From Lachnospiraceae bacterium (GTDB taxonomy: Bacteria > Bacillota > Clostridia > Lachnospirales > Lachnospiraceae), in assembly GCA_015057525.1 (NCBI GenBank), contig SVEE01000007.1, forward strand, positions 1-64,000: a stretch of DNA of 64,000 nt. The letters are read 5' to 3'. The notes below the pieces were generated by a model. The model saw only the letters and a program-made list of their open reading frames with translations, was not told the origin of the DNA and made no database searches. The translations under genes were made by a program, and so were the position numbers. Shown one piece after another: positions 13,792-25,488 of the stretch. Each line of letters begins with the position of its first letter. Within the stretch, counting starts at the first letter, position 1.

Positions 13792-13840
13792 GTGGGCGTC
13801 TATTCTGGGAGGATATAGATTTCGAAAGGTTAAGAACCTT

Positions 13841-13976
13841 AGCGCCATGCACCTTGCGAAAGTTAGCAAGGTTAACGAGGTAAAGAGTTTATCGAAGTTT
13901 TCGGCGGATGCTCTTTCGCGCAACTGAGCGTGTTATGTCTGAACAAATATGAGGGTAACTTCAAAACAAATTCAGG
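13841..13976 (+). ncRNA. glmS ribozyme: glmS self-cleaving ribozyme-riboswitch
   Basis: The leader of glmS carries the conserved ribozyme core: AGCGCC at 13841, AACGAGG, GAGTTTATCGA, TTTTCGGCGGATGCTC, and a later GAGGGTAACTTC segment closed by CTGAA/TTCAG. Family knowledge: glucosamine-6-phosphate acts as coenzyme, the RNA cleaves itself between A and G of AGCGCC (after 13841), and the cut mRNA is degraded. This gives feedback on amino-sugar synthesis. An extra hairpin, AAGGTT with AACCTT, lies just 5' of the cleavage site. Confidence 0.97.
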
Positions 13977-14122
13977 CAATCAGTGCAGTCTATGACATTA
14001 TATATGTACATTTGGCATATATAATTATTATGCTGGTTAAATAATGTATAGAATATATTTGTTGGTAAAAGGATCCTTGTATGAGGGTTTATTTTTGCTG
14101 GAAAGAATGAGGTAAATTAAAT

Positions 14123-18259: not shown

Positions 18260-18564
18260 TGTCACTTTATATTCTGGCAGACATATCCTTATATCATCTT
18301 ACAAGGATGGTGTAATATTAAATAGTCAGCACAGTATTATGTGTATAGCAAACTTTTGAACTGCGTACTTAGCGACTGACGAAATCCACCGGTTACTAAG
18401 ACTAAGGCGCGAAGGCATTCCTGAGCGACATAGTCGCAGTTACGGGTAGTTCGGCAGCGCGTTGCAGTGTGTTTGCAATACATATAATACTATGCTGACT
18501 ATTTTAATATCACACCATCCCATTAGACATTATAAAATTATGTCTGCCAGGATATAAAGTGATA
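18260..18564 (+). ncRNA. Structured repeat element, copy A (conserved core in long hairpin)
   Basis: The 343-base gap between convergent genes is almost wholly one long imperfect hairpin. Its arms pair at TCACTTTATAT-CTGGCAGACATA (18262-18286) with 18539-18562, and again at 18304-18352 with 18472-18522. The apex (about 18355-18470) matches copy B at 23333-23445 closely, including GCGCGAAGGCATTCCTGAGCG. Inside it, CGAC (18426-18429) pairs with GTCG (18433-18436), where copy B has CGTC/GACG. CCG (18389-18391) can pair with CGG (18443-18445), where copy B has CTG/CAG. No open frame. I do not recognise a known RNA family. Confidence 0.75.
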
Positions 18565-20488: not shown

Positions 20489-21331
20489 ATGGATTTTTCT
20501 AATTGCACATTAAGTGGAACATATTATGGTGGCAGTGAGAGAAAAATAGGTGTATTAGTTGATGGCGCAGAGTATATGCTGAAATTTCAGAAAAAGACAC
20601 CTTTTGGGATTAGAAATAATCATATTTCTGAATATATAGGTTCCCATGTTTTTGACTTGCTTGGTTTCAATGTGCAGGAAACTTTTTTAGGCACTTATAA
20701 TGGAGAGATGGTTGTTGCCTGCAAGAATTTTGTTACAAAAGGGGCTCAGTTTGTTCCTTTTAATGATGTTGGTGAGAGTACATTAGAGCAGGATAAAGAA
20801 AAATATAGTTATTCGTATACAGACATTATGCAGATGCTAAAAGATAATTCTAAGCTTACAGATGTTAAAGAAACTATATCTGCTTTTTGGGAGCTTTTTA
20901 TTGTGGATGCTTTGCTTGGGAACTTTGACCGCCATGGTTCTAACTGGGGATTTATTAAAAAAGATAATTTGTATCATTTAGCTCCGATATTTGATAACGG
21001 TTCGTGCCTTTTTCCTAATTTAGTGGATACAGATGAGATGCAAGATATAATAAATTCTGATGAAGAAACTATGAAGAGAGTTTACACATTTCCTACTTCA
21101 CAGATTAAATTAAACGGAAAAAAGAGCTCGTATTATGAGATTATAAACAGTTTGACGTTTCCAGAATGTAATAAAGCTCTTGTGGCAATATATAACAGAA
21201 TAGACATTAATGAAATATGTTCATTGATTGATGAAACCGAATATATAACGGACACGCAGAGGCTTTTTTATAAGCATATGATTATGGCTAGATACGAGAA
21301 CATAATTAAACATACTTATAAATCCATGTGA
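20489..21331 (+). CDS. HipA-like Ser/Thr kinase core (HipT-like toxin candidate)
   Basis: 280 aa, much shorter than HipA (about 440 aa), because the HipA N-subdomain 1 is missing. A Gly-rich loop lies at about 10-21 (SGTYYGGSERKIG) with Lys32 after it. The catalytic motif is NFDRHGSNWG (Asp147, His149, Asn152) and the metal motif is IFDNGS (Asp169). These match HipA/CtkA-type kinases, which phosphorylate aminoacyl-tRNA synthetases or other targets and act as toxins. Start follows AAGGAGGTG. It is 13 bases upstream of a DNA-binding partner gene, the layout of a toxin-antitoxin operon. All key residues are kept, so it is probably active. Confidence 0.8.
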   Translation: MDFSNCTLSGTYYGGSERKIGVLVDGAEYMLKFQKKTPFGIRNNHISEYIGSHVFDLLGFNVQETFLGTYNGEMVVACKNFVTKGAQFVPFNDVGESTLEQDKEKYSYSYTDIMQMLKDNSKLTDVKETISAFWELFIVDALLGNFDRHGSNWGFIKKDNLYHLAPIFDNGSCLFPNLVDTDEMQDIINSDEETMKRVYTFPTSQIKLNGKKSSYYEIINSLTFPECNKALVAIYNRIDINEICSLIDETEYITDTQRLFYKHMIMARYENIIKHTYKSM

Positions 21332-21344
21332 AAGGGATGATAAT

Positions 21345-22127
21345 ATGAGAGAATTTATAACAGAGGGTTGTATTTGTGTACAGGATAATATGGGTATAGA
21401 ATATTGTGTTGCCCAGATAATATACAGAGTATGGGAAAATGAAGAGTTTGAATATATTTTTAGACCAAACTATGCAGTTATAGATTTATTGGATGCATCA
21501 GTTTTTCAAGGTATACCAGGGCTTGATTTAGATAAGAGACAAAAGGAATATATCAGAAAGAATATTATTCCTGTGTTTATATCAGAGAGAAGTCCGAGCT
21601 CTAACAGAGAGGATTTGTGGGAACTTTTAGAAGCATGCGACATGGATTATCTTAACCAGCTAGAATGGCTTATTAGGACGGATACACATTATAGCGGAGA
21701 CGGATTGTATGTTAAGGCTTCTTGTGCGCAACAAGCAGATGGAATAATAAATGCAGATATGGAAGTGAAGAAGCTTACTCGCTCAAGAGATGTGCTTAGA
21801 CGGTTGCTTGATTATGTGTGTGGGGGATATAACATAGAGTATCAAGGTATGTCCATAACAGATAGCAATAGATTGTTTTGCTATAATCTTTTGTATGGTC
21901 TATACAAGAAAGAAGAGGGTTATATAAGACAACAGCAGGCACATGGTATTAAGGCGGCAAAGGCTCAGGGCAAATACAAGGGAAGAAAGCAGATTACAGT
22001 TGAATCGACTAAGTTTTATGAGGTGGCTAGAAAGTATAAGAATAAGAAGATATCTGCTGATGAGGCTGCTAATATGCTAGGTATAAGCCGTTCTACATTT
22101 TTTAGAAGACTTAAGGACAAGAAGTAA
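21345..22127 (+). CDS. Fusion of HipA N-subdomain-like domain and truncated serine resolvase
   Basis: 260 aa. Residues about 1-123 resemble the HipA N-subdomain 1 missing from the kinase upstream: GIPGLDLDKR, then PVFISERSPSSNRED and LIRT-YSGD-LYV correspond to the end of that subdomain. Residues about 138-260 resemble the later part of a serine resolvase: KKLTRSRD (resolvase DRLxRS, one Arg changed to Lys143), SITDSNRLF, the long helix QQAHGIKAAKAQGKYKGRK, and a helix-turn-helix ending GISRSTFFRRLK. The resolvase segment carrying the Ser nucleophile is absent, so recombination is not expected. Likely role: combined neutraliser and autorepressor of the kinase. This assignment is by eye. Confidence 0.65.
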   Translation: MREFITEGCICVQDNMGIEYCVAQIIYRVWENEEFEYIFRPNYAVIDLLDASVFQGIPGLDLDKRQKEYIRKNIIPVFISERSPSSNREDLWELLEACDMDYLNQLEWLIRTDTHYSGDGLYVKASCAQQADGIINADMEVKKLTRSRDVLRRLLDYVCGGYNIEYQGMSITDSNRLFCYNLLYGLYKKEEGYIRQQQAHGIKAAKAQGKYKGRKQITVESTKFYEVARKYKNKKISADEAANMLGISRSTFFRRLKDKK

Positions 22128-22959: not shown

Positions 22960-22978
22960 CAAGTTTAGTTTAATAAAT

Positions 22979-23221
22979 ATCGGCTATGAAGAGACGAGTA
23001 CCATAAAAACGGACTACAGAGAGAATTCCACTACCCGCTGAGAGAGAATTCAGAACACGCCTATGGGAAGACTACCTCGGAGCTGCTTATACAAAATATA
23101 AGCCGTTGATTACGTTACAATCATAATTAAGTGCCGTCTGGACTATATTCAGATGGAACTAGGGTGGAACCGCGATATATCGTCCCTAGCGTAGTAATGC
23201 GCTAGGGACTTTCTTATTTTT
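22979..23221 (+). ncRNA. T-box riboswitch controlling thrS
   Basis: The leader has T-box stem I beginning near 22979, a GAAGAGACGAGTACC segment whose ACC suits a Thr specifier, the conserved T-box AGGGTGGAACCGCG at 23161-23174, and a terminator made of AGCGTAG-flanking arms TCCCTAGCG / CGCTAGGGA (23183-23208) with a T-rich tail to 23221. Family knowledge: uncharged tRNA-Thr pairs with the specifier and the T-box bulge and favours the antiterminator, allowing thrS transcription. Confidence 0.95.
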
Positions 23222-23272
23222 GTGTAGTAATCTAGCGTAATAAAATATTTTATTACTTGACGAGGACTTATT

Positions 23273-23491
23273 ATATTTGAGTTTCTTATGGAGTTTGAGG
23301 ATTGCAAGATATAATAAGCAAATTTTAAACTGCGTACTTAGCGATTGACGAAATCCACTGATTACGGAGACTTAGGCGCGAAGGCATTCCTGAGCGTCTT
23401 AGACGAAGTTGACAGTTAGTTCGGCAACGCGTTGCAGTTGTTTGCTATTATATCTTACGATACTCAAATTCCTATAAGAAAACTCAAATAT
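23273..23491 (+). ncRNA. Structured repeat element, copy B, in the thrS leader
   Basis: Arms ATATTTGAGTTTCTTAT (23273-23289) and its near complement ending at 23491 form the base; AAGATATAATAAGCAAA (23306-23322) pairs with 23440-23456 region TTTGCTATTATATCTT. The arm sequences are unrelated to those of copy A, yet the apical core is nearly the same. Core hairpin CGTC (23395-23398) with GACG (23402-23405), and CTG (23358-23360) with CAG (23413-23415), replace CGAC/GTCG and CCG/CGG in copy A. It lies between the T-box terminator and thrS, so it is transcribed only on read-through. A perfect palindrome of 18 bases, TAATAAAATATTTTATTA, precedes it at 23237-23254. Confidence 0.75.
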
Positions 23492-23550
23492 GGCAATTAC
23501 TGTCTAAGTATAATGTTGGTATTATAAGAAAATAGAAAGGAAGAAAGACT

Positions 23551-25488
23551 ATGATTATCACTTTAAAAGACGGCTCATCAAAAGAATATTCTCAGCCAAT
23601 GAGTGCTTATGACATTGCGGCTGATATCAGCGAAGGACTTGCACGTATGGCATGTGCAGCGGAGATTGATGGAAAAACATGTGATTTAAGAACAATTATC
23701 GACAAGGATGCAAATCTTAACATTTATACATTTAATGACGAAGAGGGAAAGAAAACCTTCTGGCATACAGCAAGCCACATTCTTGCACAGGCAGTAAAAA
23801 GACTTTATCCTGATGCAAAGTGTGCTATTGGACCAGCTATTGACAATGGCTTCTACTATGATTTTGATATGCCATCCCTTTCAAGAGATGAGCTTGATAA
23901 AATCGAGGCAGAGATGAAGAAGATAGTTAAGGAAGCTGCTGATATCACAAGTTTTACACTTCCTAGAGAAGAGGCAATTAAGCTTATGGAGGAGAAAGCT
24001 GAACCATATAAGGTTGAGCTTATTAAGGATTTACCAGAGGATTCAATAATCAGCTTCTATACACAGGATGACTTTACTGACCTTTGTGCAGGTCCACACC
24101 TTATGTCTACAAAGACAGTTAAATTCTTCAAGCTTACATCTTCTTCAGGTGCATACTGGAGAGGAAGCTCGGACAATAAGATGCTTACTCGTATTTATGG
24201 AACAGCATTTACTAAGAAGGCTGATCTTGAGGAAAGACTTGAGTTTCTTGAAAATATTAAGCTTCGTGACCACAATAAGTTAGGTCGTGAGTTAGAGCTT
24301 TTCACTACAGTAGACGTTATCGGACAGGGACTTCCGCTTATAATGCCAAAGGGTGTTCAGATTATTCAGACACTCCAGAGATGGATTGAGGATGAGGAAG
24401 AAAAACGTGGTTACATGAGAACTAAGACTCCTCTTATGGCAAAGTCTGACCTTTACAAGATTTCAGGACACTGGGATCACTATAAAGAAGGTATGTTTGT
24501 GCTTGGTGATGAGGAGAAGGATAAAGAGGTATTTGCACTTCGCCCTATGACTTGTCCATTCCAGTACTATGTATATAAGGCAAGCCAGAAGTCATATAGA
24601 GATTTACCATGTAGATACGGCGAGACTTCAACACTTTTCAGAAATGAGGATTCAGGTGAGATGCATGGACTTACACGAGTTCGTCAGTTCACTATTTCAG
24701 AGGGACATCTCATTGTAAGACCTGATCAGATGGTTAGCGAATTTAAAGATTGTATTGCTCTTGCACAGTATTGTCTGCAGACACTCGGTGTAGAGGAAGA
24801 TGTAACATACCATCTTTCAAAATGGGATCCAGAAAACAAGGAAAAATATATAGGCGAGCCAGAGGTTTGGGAGAAGACAGAACAGGATATCAGAAATATT
24901 CTTACTGAGCTTAACATTCCGTTTACTGAGGATGTAGGCGAAGCTGCGTTCTACGGACCAAAGGTAGACATTAATGCTAAAAATGTTTATGGTAAAGAAG
25001 ATACGATGATTACAATTCAGTGGGATGCTTTGCTTGCTGAGCAGTTCGATATGTATTTCATCAATAAAGAAGGTGAGAAGGAGAGACCTTACATCATTCA
25101 CAGAACTTCAATGGGATGCTATGAGAGAACACTTGCATGGCTTATTGAGAAGTACGCTGGTGCATTCCCAACATGGCTTTCTCCAGAGCAGGTTCGTATC
25201 CTTCCTATATCCGAGAAGCATCATGAGTATGCAAATTCTGTTCTTGCTAAGCTCAAAGCAGCAGGCGTTAGAGCAACAATTGATGAAAGAGCAGAAAAGA
25301 TTGGTTACAAGATTCGAGAAGCTCGTCTTCAGAAGCTTCCATACATGCTTATTATCGGTGCTAACGAAGAGGAAGCAAATGCGGTTTCTGTTAGAAAACG
25401 TGGTGAAGATGGTGATTTAGGAAGTATGCCTGTAGATAAGTTTATAGCTGATATTGTCAAAGAGATTGAGGACAAGGTAATTAGCTAA
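23551..25488 (+). CDS. thrS: Threonyl-tRNA synthetase
   Basis: 645 aa, full length. N-terminal TGS domain (about 1-60), editing domain with HTASH (about 72-76) and the CAGPH motif, then the class II core with motif 2 (FRNE-SGEMHGLTRVRQF), zinc-site Cys in RPMTCPF, and motif 3 (MGCYERTLAWLIE), then the anticodon-binding domain with DERAEKIGYKIREA. It charges tRNA-Thr and edits mischarged Ser. Controlled by the T-box upstream; element B lies in the same leader. HipA-type kinases can target tRNA synthetases, but the nearby kinase operon is separate. Confidence 0.98.
   Translation: MIITLKDGSSKEYSQPMSAYDIAADISEGLARMACAAEIDGKTCDLRTIIDKDANLNIYTFNDEEGKKTFWHTASHILAQAVKRLYPDAKCAIGPAIDNGFYYDFDMPSLSRDELDKIEAEMKKIVKEAADITSFTLPREEAIKLMEEKAEPYKVELIKDLPEDSIISFYTQDDFTDLCAGPHLMSTKTVKFFKLTSSSGAYWRGSSDNKMLTRIYGTAFTKKADLEERLEFLENIKLRDHNKLGRELELFTTVDVIGQGLPLIMPKGVQIIQTLQRWIEDEEEKRGYMRTKTPLMAKSDLYKISGHWDHYKEGMFVLGDEEKDKEVFALRPMTCPFQYYVYKASQKSYRDLPCRYGETSTLFRNEDSGEMHGLTRVRQFTISEGHLIVRPDQMVSEFKDCIALAQYCLQTLGVEEDVTYHLSKWDPENKEKYIGEPEVWEKTEQDIRNILTELNIPFTEDVGEAAFYGPKVDINAKNVYGKEDTMITIQWDALLAEQFDMYFINKEGEKERPYIIHRTSMGCYERTLAWLIEKYAGAFPTWLSPEQVRILPISEKHHEYANSVLAKLKAAGVRATIDERAEKIGYKIREARLQKLPYMLIIGANEEEANAVSVRKRGEDGDLGSMPVDKFIADIVKEIEDKVIS

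Follow-up and report, generated by a model that had tools for sequence, protein, structure and literature searches.

In integron attC sites, structure is kept with little sequence and it is the folded single strand that is recognised; the base of the hairpin is kept and its tip varies. The hairpin family that we describe here shows the opposite pattern, a conserved tip on a variable base. Comparable in general form are bacterial MITEs such as QMITE2 of Coxiella (described in PMC10969869), which are short, non-coding, intergenic and patchily distributed elements with inverted repeats around a core and target duplications of 7-9 bp. Our family resembles them in all of these respects, the duplications being those of a single genome (G334, below). 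It differs in that its inverted repeats make up the entire stem, vary between copies of one genome and yet remain self-complementary, and outpace the core in G334.

A second point of comparison is the REP/RAYT system, in which dispersed extragenic palindromes can likewise be recognised in the form of a folded single strand (PMC3733652). REPs, however, are 20-40 bp long and carry a GTAG or CGTC tag, whereas the present hairpins range from 207 bp (in G334) to about 305 bp (copy A, below). The Y1 transposase family (PF01797) had matches in six of the 21 genomes examined, all six of them element-bearing, and no match in five others that also bear the element (G000, which is the genome of the locus studied here, and G334, G057, G115 and G225). 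RAYT-type movement is therefore not general, and we rejected RAYT/REP as a general account. Finally, template-switch (quasipalindrome) correction has been put forward (PMC8794818) as the source of perfectly paired stems and of multi-base changes that occur on both sides of a stem, both of which resemble the arms of our hairpins. It is a mutational process, however, and not an element, and it leaves both dispersal and the conservation of the core unexplained.

The two hairpins from which this analysis started lie in a 64,000-nucleotide stretch of contig SVEE01000007.1 (Lachnospiraceae bacterium, assembly GCA_015057525.1), hereafter the window. The original prediction described them as a common core set on arms that are self-complementary and mutually dissimilar, and our folds and alignments confirmed that description. 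Copy A (18260-18564, + strand) forms a single hairpin (-148.5 kcal/mol, z -15.3; none of 100 dinucleotide shuffles folded as well), in which a 5' arm (18260-18347) pairs with a 3' arm (18477-18564) on either side of a conserved apical core (18348-18476), 71 of the 84 aligned arm positions being Watson-Crick. Copy B, also on the + strand, forms a hairpin over about 23254-23510 that is best paired over 23273-23491 (-96.4 kcal/mol, z -10.1; none of 200 dinucleotide shuffles folded as well). Its 5' arm (23273-23317) and 3' arm (23447-23491) pair at 39 of 43 positions by Watson-Crick rules around a core at 23318-23446, and decayed outer parts extend the two arms to about 23254 and 23510. The limits of both cores follow the consensus fold of a 28-copy alignment, and our covariance model of the core (R1) matched them at 149.1 bits (A) and 154.1 bits (B). 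This conserved apical core is about 125 bases long; A and B are 87% identical across 121 bases of it, and their arms gave no convincing alignment.

Of the two compensatory changes first proposed within the core, CCG/CGG to CTG/CAG stands (consensus columns 52-54 and 108-110), but CGAC/GTCG to CGTC/GACG does not, since the 28-copy consensus pairs those bases elsewhere. Columns 64 and 98 hold an A-A mismatch in one copy, which is B as read off the alignment. The suggestion that no known family fits still holds as far as Rfam is concerned: a covariance-model scan returned nothing above gathering at A or B. At low threshold, three weak matches to A fell far below gathering, none of them centred on the core, and the corresponding scans of B and of two further stretches (L064 and L053) returned none.

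Copy B follows a T-box leader that lies outside the element (22977-23190, + strand; Rfam RF00230, 105.4 bits) and precedes a listed open reading frame (23551-25488, + strand) that we take, judging by its sequence, to be a threonyl-tRNA synthetase-like gene (thrS). Elsewhere in the window, the Rfam scan placed a glmS riboswitch/ribozyme at 13830-13988, upstream of an ORF whose sequence is presumably glutamine-fructose-6-phosphate transaminase-like. The neighbouring ORFs at 20489-21331 and 21345-22127 appear by eye to be HipA-type kinase-like and resolvase-type C-terminal helix-turn-helix protein-like.

The count of two copies given originally proved much too low. The window's genome contains 28 dispersed cores, and each copy lies within its own hairpin among the folds listed; at a 29th place (L203, C7:160183) there is a remnant hairpin from which the core has been deleted and in which the arms are still paired. 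Arm pairing exceeded our threshold in 27 of the 28 copies, with L022 and L027 weak and just above it and L005 below. The pairing counts given further on cover these 27 copies and 75 of 117 matches in other genomes, where contig edges, duplicates and weak or offset pairing were left out. All 28 copies are intergenic, none being contained in an ORF of at least 80 aa. Their orientation to flanking genes is inconsistent: relative to the core strand, 9 sites are convergent, 6 divergent, and 9 and 4 co-directional. Among 89 copies in other genomes the figures are 23 convergent, 13 divergent, and 16 and 30 co-directional, with 4 copies inside short predicted ORFs. In three genomes, two copies lie close together, separated by a few hundred bases and facing opposite ways (G000, C20:38603/38970 and C20:93233/93536; G026, C12:24080/24448; G230, C18:66775/67009).

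Across the family Lachnospiraceae, the R1 model matched 20 of 299 genomes, the window's own included. The latter has 28 copies, but within its genus it is the sole carrier (one of 37 genomes, and one of the 18 with completeness of 90% or more and contamination of 5% or less). The distribution is therefore patchy, as for mobile DNA. A family-wide model (R2) found matches in three of 391 genomes of the class, all three in the same family. An exact core pattern recovered at least 112 stretches in named genomes, and among the 80 matches listed the titles were Lachnospiraceae, Dorea, Roseburia, Blautia, Acetatifactor, some Eubacterium, Eubacteriales, Clostridiales and Clostridia; Dorea, Roseburia, Blautia, Acetatifactor and some of the Eubacterium are counted here as Lachnospiraceae. 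Eubacterium plexicaudatum ASF492 and Blautia schinkii are among these matches, both of them with arms beside the core. The core of L016 had no match in the phage or plasmid collections. Six pattern matches did occur in a collection of viral contigs (viral_contigs), of which five were checked for arms; none had paired arms beside the core, and they were therefore taken as chance and viral carriage was set aside. No neighbouring gene recurs, in that no Pfam family was found in more than two of the 60 neighbour proteins scanned out of 136 candidates (25 of the 92 families listed). Because recurrent neighbours are absent from this sample, cis-regulation of a gene class is disfavoured.

The check suggested at the outset, a covariance model with a search of Lachnospiraceae genomes and a test of covariation, yielded not only these family-wide matches but also strong covariation. 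The 104 matches, from 99 loci, comprise 100 distinct cores, whose cells are paired in 92.9% of cases, or 76.9% after shuffling. Both partners have changed in 35 of the 39 core pairs, and covariation scores 0.411, compared with 0.145 for shuffled data, none of 500 shuffles being as high. Shifting the pairing partner abolishes the signal. The model itself guided this alignment and so favours pairing, but the margin is large. Aligned with MAFFT, the 28 cores of the window's genome have double changes in 16 of the 39 pairs.

Some copies depart from this fold. L039, L045, L058 (1501-1681) and L083 (2725-2890) have a longer, additional stem in place of the tip loop, which suggests that stems grow at the apex also. 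In L089 and L060, other paired sequence is inserted between the core halves, on the 3' side of the core, and the 3' arm lies 134-157 bases farther out.

Very strong covariation of the core, together with the fold z-scores of A and B, would be expected of a structured RNA, either non-coding or part of a UTR, that carries its conserved apical domain on a stem free to vary and has spread as a gene family. The place of B, between a T-box and thrS, would be transcribed, and in G334 the unpaired core bases are as constrained as the paired ones (0.012 and 0.013 substitutions per site per copy). RNA helices accept G-U in place of a regular pair far more readily than A-C, and counts of the two mismatches bear on this reading from both sides. 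The cores of the window's genome, counted over all but the weakly paired columns, hold 13 G-U and 1 A-C in 1006 cells, and one-sided changes in the G334 arms gave 21 G-U and 8 A-C; both results fit a strand-specific fold, whether RNA or single-stranded DNA, of the core above all. Against RNA, the arms hold nearly as many A-C as G-U mismatches (83 and 107 in total; 37 and 52 in the 27 copies of the window's genome, 46 and 55 in the 75 other copies). The variable pairs of the family core, counted with weakly paired columns omitted, hold 64 G-U and 33 A-C in 2921 cells (G-U 2.2%), against 28 and 4 in 358 cells (G-U 7.8%) of a T-box control, which is a small one with a predicted fold (the window's own thrS T-box plus 17 sequences from congeners). 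The near balance in the arms and the mild bias of the family core relative to this control look DNA-like. The inconsistent orientation, the lack of a recurrent neighbour family or of an Rfam match, and the absence of the family from the other 36 genomes of the genus also weigh against a structured RNA, a reading that we consider possible but unlikely and do not favour. The initial suggestion of selection on RNA or single-strand structure thus survives as far as structure is concerned, given a core fold conserved with massive covariation and arms that differ far more between than within copies of the window's genome; on its RNA part the mismatch counts point both ways.

The contrast between arms and core is evident in the window's own genome. 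Over 60 bases, the two arms of one copy score 34.4 on average, against 7.9 between the 5' arms of different copies and 3.3 for shuffled sequence, and the ends of the hairpins also differ from copy to copy by eye. The first 10-15 arm bases beside the core are loosely common to the copies, and some arms have the weakly conserved motif ACATAGTATGGCA in common (both by eye); the arms are therefore not wholly independent. In L002 and L003 the cores are 99.2% identical, and the arms score 8.5 between the two copies, against 40.5 and 46 within them. Near-identical cores on unrelated arms cannot have arisen by ordinary point mutation since a common hairpin.

Another genome of the family, the MAG S27M_St_58 (G334), captures the insertion of these hairpins. 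It holds 13 complete hairpins of 207 bases that match the query at 90-100% identity over arms as well as core and that have their terminal inverted repeats in common. Direct repeats of 7-9 bases lie just outside the hairpin in 12 of these 13 complete copies, compared with three of 156 mismatched flank pairs (13 of 18 rows entered this comparison; the truncated L245, the other-ended L249, L250 and L251, and L257, a repeat of L236, were kept out). In the window's genome, no target duplication was detectable among 27 testable copies (mean score 2.04, control 2.09), so insertion with duplication is established for G334 alone. The original prediction had read the pattern of shared core and unlike arms as arguing against a mobile repeat. 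That reading finds no support in a family that is dispersed and patchy, whose 28 copies in the window's genome are all intergenic and without consistent orientation, and that inserted as whole hairpins with target-site duplications in G334.

Rates of change could also be compared in G334. In 12 copies (L240, of another length, and L250 being kept out), the arms have accumulated 0.068 substitutions per site per copy, about five times the rate of the core, paired or unpaired. The arms of the same copies contain 12 double changes to another Watson-Crick pair, against 61 one-sided changes, 25 of which turned a non-Watson-Crick consensus pair into a Watson-Crick one. This excess of one-sided changes may point to a strand-specific fold, possibly of RNA. 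L250 by itself has 15 double changes in its arms, among which several are double transversions, and flips such as CG to GC are among the double changes recorded. Mini-hairpins that lack the core but keep the ends of the full hairpins are present as well, so the core may be dispensable for movement in G334. A second short element, roughly 183 bp in length (L304:888-1070 and L305:926-1107), has only the 18-base end GATGYCRGGGTCAAAAGG in common with the hairpins, and movement in this genome may therefore rely on borrowed ends. No transposase or autonomous partner was seen by eye in G334, where the end pattern was searched, ends were mapped in 20 stretches and the ORFs of three were listed. One stretch with two end-like motifs 1.7 kb apart (L298) was rejected as an autonomous element, its insert being one 515-aa ORF that is regulator-like by eye.

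The target duplications, the common ends and the sharing of one end with a second short element are all features of an ordinary IS-derived MITE. Such an element would here have unusually long terminal inverted repeats, its arms would have aged apart, and its core would be conserved through recency or weak constraint. PMC10969869, too, reports that MITEs have AT-rich intergenic targets and are flanked by repeats of 7-9 bp. The copies of the window's genome, however, have neither common ends nor a detectable target duplication, the arms change about fivefold faster than the core even in G334, and the cores of L002 and L003 are hard to reconcile with arms that merely aged. Moreover, the three of 20 G334 stretches whose ORFs were listed yielded no IS that has these ends. 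We therefore regard an ordinary MITE as unlikely.

Empty sites in congeners bear on what the inserting unit is. Matches to the thrS-like ORF were used to locate the empty counterpart of the B site, and in G315 the T-box match and the thrS match are 25 bases apart, compared with 318 in the window. At the site of L015, the flanking coordinates differ by 36 (G304) and 57 (G315), compared with 317-323 in the window's genome, and neither arm is present. Arms and core are both extra at these two sites, which is evidence against arms made of host flanks. The L019 site, with a coordinate difference of 110 in G315 against 476 in the window's genome, aligned poorly and so was not counted; for A, the upstream gene had no match among the congener matches listed. 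These results speak to the idea that the core alone inserts, either into pre-existing palindromes (e.g., terminators) or with arms made by inverted copying of a flank through snap-back synthesis. Such a process would account for unrelated, self-complementary arms around near-identical cores, as in L002 and L003. It is very improbable, however, given that the congener sites of B and L015 hold neither arm, and that in G334 the arms are inherited with the core and the target duplications lie outside them. In addition, a BLAST search of A and B against their own genome recovered, in the 10 of 12 matches listed, the core with at most about 33 arm bases or the copy's own opposite arm, besides self-matches and one match outside the elements.

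The best account, in our judgement a little likelier to be right than wrong, is that A and B are non-autonomous mobile DNA hairpins with a conserved tip and a rewritable stem. The whole hairpin, arms and core, would be the inserting unit and would be moved by a trans-acting enzyme. The core would fold and be kept by selection, most likely as a folded single-stranded DNA site for a mobilisation protein. The arms would need only to pair and would have no sequence duty, as their roughly fivefold higher rate in G334, the sole genome in which it was measurable, suggests. Copying of one arm onto the other, by template switching or hairpin repair during replication, may restore pairing and would yield paired double changes with few G-U intermediates. 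The pattern of L002 and L003 would call for something more, for which gene conversion of cores is the simplest candidate and arm renewal at transposition another. Cores could be homogenised if SbcCD cut long hairpins and the breaks were mended by ectopic repair. Stems have been proposed to be both created and mended by template switching within hairpins (PMC8794818).

A second hairpin family in the congeners, with the tip ACCTCTTACAGTNGCCG, also combines a conserved tip with a changing paired stem (by eye, four copies) and uses the same thrS leader site. It differs from the present family in its unrelated tip and in its distribution, with 12 places in four of the 37 genus genomes and none in the window's genome. 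The hairpins of this second family that lie in the thrS leader are L205 (G305), L207 (G311) and L208 (G303).

More tentatively, A and B may represent a new kind of mobile element, whose folded core is bound in single-stranded form and swapped, or made uniform, among copies, and whose stem is renewed arm from arm so that identity resides only in the tip and the stem persists as a structure with no fixed sequence; this bolder proposal we consider possible but doubtful. If it is true, the existence of independent tips, as in the second family of the congeners, would point to a general class of such elements in Lachnospiraceae. No description of the hairpin family was found by title among the papers listed from the open-licence PubMed Central literature. 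One sequence-string match, in a salmon study (PMC8301090), was set aside as coming from a different organism.

Covariation is commonly taken as a strong sign of functional RNA, and here a dispersed, inserted DNA repeat covaries very strongly, although its mismatches across the family are unlike those of a true RNA of the same genus. The family thus lends itself to asking to what extent compensatory changes can arise through template switching and hairpin repair alone, in the absence of selection on RNA, and it adds an apparently undescribed dispersed element to parts of a major gut family.
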